A DNA stretch of 64,000 nt, taken from the NCBI RefSeq assembly GCF_017356035.1, contig NZ_JAFIQX010000002.1, positions 372,001 to 436,000 of the forward strand. Direction: 5' to 3'. The stretch's first letter is position 1, and each line of letters begins with the position of its first letter. The stretch is from Longitalea luteola (lineage in GTDB: Bacteria; Bacteroidota; Bacteroidia; Chitinophagales; Chitinophagaceae). The notes under the pieces were generated by a model. The model worked only from the letters and a program-made list of their open reading frames with translations, had not been told where the DNA came from and did no database searches. Of this stretch, positions 12,382 through 13,452 are shown in pieces. The position numbers and the translations under genes are program-made.

Positions 12382-12458
12382 GAAGCGGCAAAAATAGGCG
12401 AGAAAAATGAATGGAAAAAAGGCGGCAACAGAAGTTGATCAGAAAGCCATTTAAACTA

Positions 12459-12501
12459 AAATGCCGCCTCTGTATTGGCTGTCAATACAAAGACGGCATT
12501 T
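12459..12501 (-). terminator. Terminator hairpin downstream of the tRNA-like genes
   Basis: A 19-bp inverted repeat (12459-12477 and 12483-12501, 17 of 19 pairs matched, 5-base loop) is followed on the minus strand by a T-rich stretch. It begins 5 bases after the 3' end of the nearer tRNA-like element, so it likely ends that transcript before trmB. Confidence 0.8.
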
Positions 12502-12506
12502 GAAGC

Positions 12507-12673
12507 TGTAGAGGGAGGATTCGAACCTCCACGGGGCAGTTAGCCATGGCGCAATTCTGTGGTGGTCAACCCCAGTCGGCTTAATTGCTTAAACCGGCAT
12601 TACACCACGTTTATCCCGAACTCCCCACCCCCGAGACAAGAGGGCATGTCTGCCAAAGTTCCATCACTCCACA
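12507..12673 (-). ncRNA. tRNA-like RNA 1 with a large structured variable region
   Basis: Read on the minus strand, this has a full tRNA core. The acceptor stem TGTGGAG (12673-12667) pairs with CTCTACA (12513-12507). A class II D-arm runs ATG-GAACTTTGGCAGA-CAT. The anticodon arm CCCTC-TTGTCTC-GGGGG gives a formal GUC triplet at 12637-12635. The T-arm is GGAGG-TTCGAAT-CCTCC at 12530-12514. CCA is not encoded; base 73 would be G. Between anticodon and T-arm lies a 97-base insertion instead of a 4-20 base variable arm. It closes with GGGGAGTT/AACTGCCCC and holds an inner stem (12559-12563 with 12604-12608) and a hairpin at 12577-12596 with a GCAA tetraloop. Residue 37 is T, unusual for decoding. 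Function unknown. Confidence 0.7.
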
Positions 12674-12700
12674 AGATAAAACGTGTAAAAAAAAAGCTGC

Positions 12701-12831
12701 TGTAGGAGGAGGATTCGAACCTCCACGGGGTTGTTAGCCACGCTAAAAGCGCAATTTGTCCTTCCTGGCGAACCAGTACTCCCCACCCTCGAGACAAGAG
12801 GGCATGTCTGCCAAAGTTCCATCACCCCACA
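12701..12831 (-). ncRNA. tRNA-like RNA 2 with a large structured variable region
   Basis: This is a tandem relative of the element 27 bases away. Acceptor stem TGTGGGG (12831-12825) pairs with TCCTACA (12707-12701); relative to copy 1, positions 6-67 change from A-U to G-C and 7-66 from G-C to G-U, so pairing is kept. The D-arm, 7-base loop TTGTCTC and T-arm are identical to copy 1. The insertion is 61 bases and folds differently: an outer GGGG/CCCC, a CTGG-TTCG-CCAG hairpin (12765-12776) and a CGC-TTTTA-GCG hairpin (12741-12751). The blocks complementary to GTTAGCCA (12733-12740) and GCGCAATT (12749-12756) are shared with copy 1. After the 3' end comes a T9 run (12686-12695 region), so it may end separately. 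Confidence 0.7.
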
Positions 12832-12913
12832 GTATATTTCGCTGTTTAAAGAACTATTTCATAGCAATATTAAAGAAATTGCCAGTATTGTTGTAAATTA
12901 TTCAAGAAAAATT

Positions 12914-12943
12914 TTGAAAGTTTCGACAATATATAAATATTTG
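12914..12943 (+). promoter_or_regulatory. Probable promoter of the Lrp-type regulator
   Basis: TTG at 12914-12916 and AATATTTG at 12936-12943 (one base off TAnnTTTG) are 19 bases apart, fitting the Bacteroidota primary sigma consensus. They lie 38 bases upstream of the regulator start. The tRNA-like pair diverges from the same spacer. Confidence 0.5.
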
Positions 12944-12981
12944 CACACTTAGTTGAAATTTGTAAAAAAACGATTGCAAAA

Positions 12982-13452
12982 ATGGCAGCTAAATTGAATT
13001 TGGATAAACTGGACCTGCAGATAATCCACGAGATGATGGACAATGCAGAAATCTCCTATGCAGATCTGGGTAAGAAGCTTTTTGTTTCCGGTGGTACTAT
13101 CCATGTACGCATAAAAAAATTGCAGGAAGCGGGTATTGTCAAAGGTACAAAATTAAATGTGGACCTTAAAGCGCTCGGATATGATGTCATTGCATTTATT
13201 GGCATATATCTTGAGAAAAGCTCCCTGTACGATTCAGTAGCCAAAGAACTGCAGCGCATCCCCGAAATTGTACGATTAAATTACACCACAGGAAATTACA
13301 GCATGTTTGCTGAAATAGTTTGTAAAGACATTAATCAATTACGCTTTGTGTTGCACGATGAGTTACAGAAGATAAAAGGAATTGAACGCACCGAAACGTT
13401 TATTTCCCTTGAAGAAAGCTTCAGCCGTAATGTTCAGGTCTTTACCCAGTAG
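12982..13452 (+). CDS. Lrp/AsnC family transcriptional regulator
   Basis: This 156-residue regulator has an N-terminal winged helix-turn-helix (LDLQIIHEMMDNAEISYADL...VSGGTIHVRIKKLQEAGIV) and a C-terminal RAM/AsnC ligand domain from about residue 65. Lrp-type proteins form octamers and bind amino acids or related metabolites. Its effector and targets cannot be told; it is transcribed away from the tRNA-like genes and sits next to no amino-acid gene. Length and domain order are normal. The start ATG at 12982 follows an A-rich leader. Confidence 0.93.
   Translation: MAAKLNLDKLDLQIIHEMMDNAEISYADLGKKLFVSGGTIHVRIKKLQEAGIVKGTKLNVDLKALGYDVIAFIGIYLEKSSLYDSVAKELQRIPEIVRLNYTTGNYSMFAEIVCKDINQLRFVLHDELQKIKGIERTETFISLEESFSRNVQVFTQ

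Follow-up and report, generated by a model that had tools for sequence, protein, structure and literature searches.

What might a bacterium use an RNA for that keeps the complete core of a tRNA, carries the formal anticodon GUC and bears a multi-helix domain in place of the variable arm? The question is raised by a 64,000-nucleotide stretch of the 7.3-Mb genome of Longitalea luteola ("the window," meaning that whole stretch), in which an earlier note had described a tandem pair of such elements. The pair is present, with both copies on the minus strand (12831-12699 and 12673-12505), and the locus comprises the following features:

12699..12831, minus strand: tRNA-like RNA copy B (the upstream copy), from U1 to the encoded C74; covariance model R1, 109.3 bits, E = 1.8e-27, and sequence.
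12505..12673, minus strand: tRNA-like RNA copy A (the downstream copy), from U1 to the encoded C74; covariance model R1, 119.3 bits, E = 3.1e-30, and sequence.
12791..12797, minus strand: anticodon loop of copy B, UUGUCUC (positions 32-38), with G34, U35, C36, U37 and C38; sequence and family conservation.
12633..12639, minus strand: anticodon loop of copy A, UUGUCUC (positions 32-38); sequence and family conservation.
12727..12784, minus strand: extended variable-arm domain of copy B, closed by GGGG/CCCC; sequence and V-stem compensation in the family.
12533..12626, minus strand: extended variable-arm domain of copy A, closed by GGGG/CCCC, with a GAUAAA / GCUAAC internal loop; sequence, motif count and V-stem compensation.
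12455..12501, minus strand: long hairpin and then a T-rich tail directly 3' of copy A, which could terminate the RNA operon; judged by eye.
12982..13452, plus strand: divergent gene for an AsnC-like (Lrp/AsnC family) regulator, a frequent neighbour of the element; NCBIfam, PDB and synteny.

The two copies differ much as the earlier note had said. Their acceptor stems diverge at pairs 6-67 (A-U/G-C) and 7-66 (G-C/G-U) with pairing held, an anticodon-stem pair changes between U-G and U-A, and both insertions are closed by GGGG/CCCC. The loop UUGUCUC, with U at position 37, is the same in both copies, and the T-loop reads UUCGAAU. ARAGORN made no tRNA call over the window. Rfam 15 gave no match at its gathering score in the window and none at E ≤ 1 for 12400-12950. 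The tmRNA model (RF00023) scored over its cut-off elsewhere in the window genome and had no match at the element. A terminator scan and an inverted-repeat search 3' of copy A returned nothing matching the hairpin at 12455..12501. The lack of ARAGORN and Rfam calls would suit tRNA pseudogenes, or an intron or insertion in a tRNA gene, but we regard this explanation as almost certainly wrong, because compensatory covariation is strong throughout a class and the insert motif described below is conserved.

With copy B as the query, a DNA search had its best matches at E ≤ 1e-6 in 54 of the 99 relatives, a count that includes the window's own genome; at E ≤ 1 the same search reached 82 of the 99, chance matches included. 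We parsed 98 distinct copies by motif, and the search motifs are therefore constant by construction, within the allowed mismatches. The covariance model R1 was built from 42 diverse copies and run on 395 genomes of the phylum Bacteroidota, recovering the family in 40 of them. The separation was clean: elements scored at least 97.9 bits in these 40 genomes, followed by a single match at 70.7 bits and then by matches at ~63 bits and below. We called elements at 97.9 bits and above, so that genome G155, with the 70.7-bit match, was scored as lacking the element. The sub-threshold match in the one genome checked, the window's own, was tRNALeu(GAG).

The genomes with the element comprise 37 of 98 in the same class and 3 from one family (f123) of another class, so the RNA family is spread across class Bacteroidia and one family beyond it. 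By family within the class, the element occurs in 12 of 14 genomes of f1, 5/5 of f18, 8/8 of f36, 7/10 of f61, 2/3 of f70 and 3/3 of f87, and the R1 survey found none in f41, f43, f54, f73, f75 and f78. We recognised no described RNA of this kind in the one open-access library searched, most subscription papers lying outside the search. We rate the RNA family as categorically new, whereas its proposed enzymes are known ones.

The fold was assessed in 111 copies aligned with the covariance model (108 distinct rows, 80 loci), with 95 input sources picked by hand. In this alignment, which is biased towards structure because it was fitted to the model and 42 of its 111 copies built that model, 95.5% of paired cells hold, compared with 50 to 60% in controls with slid partners, and 22 of the 30 pairs show two-sided changes. 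The covariation score was reached by none of 500 shuffles, and the count of further pair types by 3 of 500, which places the pattern far outside chance. All four tRNA arms (acceptor, D, anticodon and T), with U8, A14, GG and UUCR, were found in 98 of the 98 parsed copies, by a parser that itself requires the D-arm, anticodon and T-loop motifs. Unconstrained folding of single sequences did not recover the cloverleaf in copies A and B; against shuffles, copy A reached a z score of -2.3, and copy B, at +0.12, folded no better than shuffles. The structural support is comparative, not drawn from single-sequence folding.

Within the variable arm, the V-stem that reads GGGG/CCCC in the window is GAAG/CUUC or GGAG/CUCC in other copies, and a second short helix likewise varies (CAG/CUG, CGG/CCG, UGG/CCA). 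An internal loop follows, in which a GAUAAA-like strand faces CUAA, with UAA present in 110 of 111 copies, and then come helices that vary; the weakest helix, with 67% of its cells paired, lies within the insert. The earlier note had singled out blocks shared by the two inserts. The blocks AATTGCGC and TGGCTAAC do occur in both inserts, but what is constant across the family is instead the internal loop just described. Nor is the family marked by loss of the insertion and decay of the core, which the earlier note would have read as signs of pseudogenes: the variable-arm insertion is present in 110 of 111 aligned copies, with its size and inner helices varying, and element length is 110-212 nt in the same proportion, the remaining form being 78 nt. 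This short homologue, in G155 (L231:738-815), keeps the core with no variable-arm insert, has the loop CUAUCUC (anticodon AUC) and retains U1-A72, G73 and C74; the G155 genome has AsnA and is without GlnRS. Two further pairings were considered and rejected. An eight-base-pair acceptor, with a pyrimidine at -1 pairing with G73, was suggested by a pyrimidine there in 97 of 98 copies of the first set, but position -1 is A in 10 of 111 in the wider set. A helix between AGAC of the D-arm and GUCU of the loop is broken, by eye, in copies with AGCC or GUCC.

The conserved residues point to what the RNA may be charged with. U1-A72, G2-C71, U35, C36, C38, G73 and C74 are invariant in all 111 copies, and G34 is found in 107, the exceptions being CUC in G282 and G645, UUC in G580 and AUC in the short G155 form. 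Published work gives G73, G34, U35, C36 and C38 as the aspartate identity set (PMC9976931); the tRNA-like RNA has this set in full apart from the exceptions at position 34. The same source attributes amidation of Asp-tRNAAsn to U1-A72 and its prevention in tRNAAsp to G1-C72 and U20a (PMC9976931). By this rule for GatCAB substrates, 111 of 111 copies qualify, with U1-A72, no G1-C72 and no U20a. Position 20a is A throughout (111/111), A20a being a published Leu feature (PMC9976931). When G10, G1-C72 and G2-C71 are taken as the AspRS set, G2-C71 alone is constant, and position 10 is G in only 15 of 111 copies (A in 83, U in 13). In its residues, the RNA unites the aspartate identity set with the amidation mark U1-A72, and has A at 20a.

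The window's own genome offers a reference for these residues. Its ordinary tRNAAsp(GUC) has the loop CUGUCAC, G73 and G1-C72; its tRNAAsn, like the element, has U1-A72. The AspRS inspected is of the bacterial type. C74 is encoded in 43 of its 43 tRNA genes and the full CCA in 2 of 43, and the element likewise encodes C74 without CCA. Its two tRNAGln genes (L151 and L156) both have A73, the published bacterial Gln identity set having G73 (PMC9976931).

U33, a purine at 37 and a variable region of the usual size, as expected of an elongator tRNA, are not kept together in the family. Position 33 is U in 90 copies, C in 9, A in 8 and G in 4, so that U33 is lost in 21; position 37 is U in 97, C in 8 and G in 6, giving a pyrimidine in 105 and a purine in 6. 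The RNA could still be a decoding tRNA for Asp codons, perhaps placing asparagine there under stress, a role that would make sense of the formal anticodon GUC, the complete tRNA core and the 90 copies with U33. However, the pyrimidine at 37, the copies without U33 and the length of 110-212 nt argue against it, as does the ordinary tRNAAsp(GUC) of the window genome, and we consider such decoding very improbable. Together, conservation, covariation and the residue pattern back the earlier suggestion of a structured RNA on a tRNA body that may be charged and may not decode.

Three of the copies that are exceptional at position 34 have anticodons for Glu (CUC in L192 and L246, UUC in L240), and could hint at a switch to Glu/Gln. 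Charging of the RNA with glutamate and amidation to glutamine, instead of or besides the aspartate route, would fit these copies; both CUC genomes are without GlnRS, and GatCAB also makes Gln-tRNA. Still, G34 is present in 107 of 111 copies, the neighbouring gene is AsnC-like, the UUC genome (G580) has GlnRS, and G2-C71 differs from the published Glu pair U2-A71 (PMC9976931). As an account of the family, we find a glutamate route hard to credit.

The neighbouring gene points towards asparagine. The top NCBIfam match of the AsnC-like protein in the window is AsnC (NF008384; 164 bits, under the cut-off of 227), and its best PDB match is E. coli AsnC (2cg4, E = 2e-33). All 7 of the 7 neighbours that we tested had AsnC as their highest-scoring NCBIfam family (150-180 bits); because these scores lie below the NF008384 cut-off of 227, we call the proteins AsnC-like, not proven AsnC. 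An AsnC-like gene lay in the element's locus in 74 of 81 first-set loci, some of which overlap, and was divergent beside the element in 30 of 40 genomes with it (11/12 in f1, 0/5 in f18, 4/8 in f36, 7/7 in f61, 2/2 in f70, 3/3 in f87 and 3/3 in f123). No such gene was found beside the element in f18, in 4 of the 8 genomes of f36 or in G043. In E. coli, asnA is switched on by AsnC, an effect that L-asparagine abolishes (PMC4482635). Control of the AsnC type suits a gene with a supply role. One genome without the element, G259, has an AsnC-like gene and an AsnB-like gene in divergent orientation. We set aside the AsnC-like gene of G203, which lies tail to tail with asnS and is not divergent. We also dropped trmB as a candidate partner, since it was not found beside the element in order-level loci, where an AsnC-like gene often was.

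The distribution of the RNA follows that of GatCAB, whose presence we judged by GatB, with GatB taken as absent where a genome was not on the list of positives. GatB was found in 37 of 37 class genomes with the element and in 4 of 61 without it (Fisher p = 7.5e-23, with kinship ignored), and the element in 37 of 41 class genomes with GatB. The 3 genomes with the element in the other class also have GatB, for 40 of 40 overall; beyond the class, genomes commonly have GatB and not the element. Element and GatB are also jointly absent inside families, in f1 (G040, G385) and f61 (G137, G239, G617). GlnRS and AsnRS were both over cut-off in 34 of the 37, so that these genomes would not need GatCAB for their normal Gln- and Asn-tRNA. 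Among class genomes lacking the element, by comparison, GatB occurs together with GlnRS in only 2 of 61. The four with GatB are G117 and G155, which are without GlnRS, so that glutamine explains their GatCAB, and G421 and G468, which have GlnRS and weaker GatB matches (E ~1e-105, vs 5e-143 or better in class genomes with the element).

GatCAB could, however, be working on ordinary tRNAAsn. Asparagine would then be made there by a non-discriminating AspRS together with GatCAB, and the tRNA-like RNA would be an accessory, such as one that scaffolds or regulates the AspRS-GatCAB complex. The same enzyme set (AsnRS, GlnRS and GatCAB without AsnA or AsnB) has been reported in 18 genera, which include Bacteroidetes, and the same source describes the tRNAAsn route as shown in Bdellovibrio and proposes a non-discriminating AspRS for such sets (PMC4206432). 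The U1-A72 pair of tRNAAsn in the window genome is also in line with this route. It leaves unexplained why the RNA has U35, C36, C38, G73 and near-constant G34, an Asp and not an Asn anticodon, and why RNA and GatB pair as they do (37/41 GatB-positive genomes with the RNA; GatB in 4/61 without it). We consider it unlikely.

Another possibility is a tRNA mimic with a regulatory role, bound but not amidated, which might titrate AspRS or report Asp/Asn charging and be co-regulated with asparagine metabolism. The conserved AspRS determinants and the AsnC-like neighbour are compatible with this, and synthetase-binding tRNA mimics are known, as in the thrS operator (PMC9976931). A pure mimic would have no need of the acceptor stem, G73 and C74 seen in every aligned copy, and neither U1-A72 nor the link to GatB would be predicted, making a mimic distinctly unlikely in our judgement.

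To see which asparagine synthetases accompany the RNA, we compared 80 hand-picked genomes: the 41 GatB-positive genomes of the class, 36 of its 57 GatB-negative genomes and 3 of the other class. AsnRS was over cut-off in 80 of the 80 and GlnRS in 72. E. coli-type AsnB was found in none of 40 genomes with the element and in 31 of 40 without it, 36 of the latter 40 being picked by hand, and AsnA in 3/40 and 9/40, respectively. Either enzyme was thus present in 3 of 40 genomes with the element and in 34 of 40 without (p = 9e-13, again with 36 of the latter hand-picked). In the 31 genomes, "E. coli-type" was assigned by how the match to TIGR01536 was shaped; the AsnB equivalog was tested in 4 of them, of which 3 were over its cut-off and G259 reached 491.8 against 499. 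The AsnB-family proteins examined from genomes with the element (8 from 7 genomes) scored 244-338 bits against the same cut-off of 499, and those of G385 and G159, which lack the element, were also under it.

In five genomes with the element (G031, G417, G456, G513 and G580), neither AsnA nor an AsnB-family match over cut-off was found, and AsnRS was present; in G417 and G580, AsnB-family matches were no better than E = 1e-12. Many others, the window's own included, keep putative AsnB-family paralogues, and we do not claim that asparagine synthetase is absent from the window's own genome. It has one AsnB-family protein in a lanthipeptide-like cluster and one that stands alone. The former (L267, G000:C38:215000-230000) sits amid LanC-like and dehydratase-like proteins, judged by eye to be a lanthipeptide cluster. 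Conversely, six genomes without the element also lack AsnA and E. coli-type AsnB (G040, G117, G159, G385, G421 and G468), and three of these, G040, G159 and G385, are without GatB as well. G040, listed as 100% complete, has AsnRS and none of the element, GatB, AsnA or AsnB over cut-off, and is predicted to be an asparagine auxotroph or to have another route to asparagine.

What was computed is the RNA family with its fold and constant residues, its AsnC-like neighbour, its association with GatB, and how seldom AsnA and E. coli-type AsnB accompany it. From these results we infer a route that runs from transcription through charging, amidation, exclusion from the ribosome and release to AsnC-type control. 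The RNA would be transcribed divergently from the AsnC-like regulator and matured like a tRNA, with C74 encoded and CA added. AspRS would load aspartate through G34-U35-C36, C38 and G73, and GatCAB, for which U1-A72 would be the mark for amidation, would turn the loaded aspartate into asparagine. An RNA with a GUC anticodon that carried asparagine would misread codons for Asp, so it must not decode; the pyrimidine at 37, the absence of U33 from some copies and the large domain in the variable arm may serve to keep it off the ribosome. Asparagine would be freed from the RNA for general use, AsnRS included, so that the RNA would stand in for asparagine synthetase (AsnA/AsnB), and the AsnC-like protein would tune the RNA level to asparagine. 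That the RNA is a stand-alone, tRNA-derived, non-decoding carrier, aspartylated and then amidated, which supplies asparagine under AsnC-type control, seems to us somewhat more probable than the contrary. The fuller claim, that it is a dedicated RNA cofactor for free asparagine which is controlled by an AsnC-type regulator and takes the place of asparagine synthetase in some Bacteroidota, we judge to be evenly balanced.

Several observations weigh against the carrier reading. G34 is not universal, and G580, whose copy reads UUC, lacks AsnA and AsnB over cut-off, which is where charging with aspartate matters most. G10 is rare, U1-A72 replaces the G1-C72 of tRNAAsp, and A20a is Leu-like. AspRS belongs to the class II synthetases, for which an approach from the side of the variable loop is expected, so that the insert could be in its way. 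AsnB-family paralogues persist in many genomes with the element, and AsnA in 3. The six genomes that lack both the element and the usual synthetases also slightly lower our confidence.

Comparison with known systems helps to place the carrier reading. Bacterial class II tRNALeu resembles the element in its D-arm style (GAUGRAA..GGCAGACAUG, compared with GGUGGAAC..GGUAGACAC in the tRNALeu of the window genome), A20a and long variable region, but the element has G73 instead of A73, a GUC loop, a pyrimidine at 37 and U1-A72, and its variable arm is a multi-helix domain in an RNA of 110-212 nt in 110 of 111 copies. With tRNAAsp(GUC) it shares G34, U35, C36, C38, G73 and G2-C71, and it differs in U1-A72 in place of G1-C72, in G10 (15/111), in the long variable-arm domain and in the pyrimidine at 37. 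The route by non-discriminating AspRS and GatCAB on tRNAAsn (Deinococcus, Thermus, Bdellovibrio) involves the same two enzymes as proposed here and, in part of the genomes, the same combination of AsnRS, GlnRS and GatCAB without asparagine synthetase (PMC4206432). The difference is that the carrier here would be a dedicated, non-decoding RNA with an Asp anticodon, for which a discriminating AspRS would suffice.

Staphylococcal tRNAGly for peptidoglycan provides a case of non-proteinogenic tRNAs of normal size; like the proposed carrier they donate an amino acid outside translation, and unlike it they are not known to have an extra domain or to undergo amidation. E. coli asnC-asnA is a divergent arrangement. 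It parallels the present locus in having an AsnC-type regulator of an asparagine-supply gene (PMC4482635), whereas here the regulator lies beside a gene for an RNA instead of a synthetase, and its score is below the AsnC cut-off.

We know of no RNA whose sole role is to carry an amino acid while it is made, with no part in translation. If the carrier reading is true, this would be the first such carrier-only RNA and a new biosynthetic route in a major phylum, and it would explain why many of these bacteria with AsnRS and GlnRS keep GatCAB. In delta-proteobacteria that also have asparagine synthetase, retention of GatCAB has been described as possibly vestigial (PMC4206432). Even on the weakest reading, the RNA family is widespread, covaries strongly and has no match in Rfam.

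Two smaller features of the elements were also seen. The D-loop is enlarged by a small hairpin (e.g., UGCGAAAGCA) in L049, L062, L073, L078, L123 and L124. A boxA-like GTTCTTW motif lies within the 80 nt upstream of elements, for example near 12855 on the minus strand of the window, and occurs upstream of 37 of 110 copies, compared with a mean of 1.7 for base-shuffled and 3 for reversed sequence; such a motif is what a stable untranslated RNA might be expected to have.
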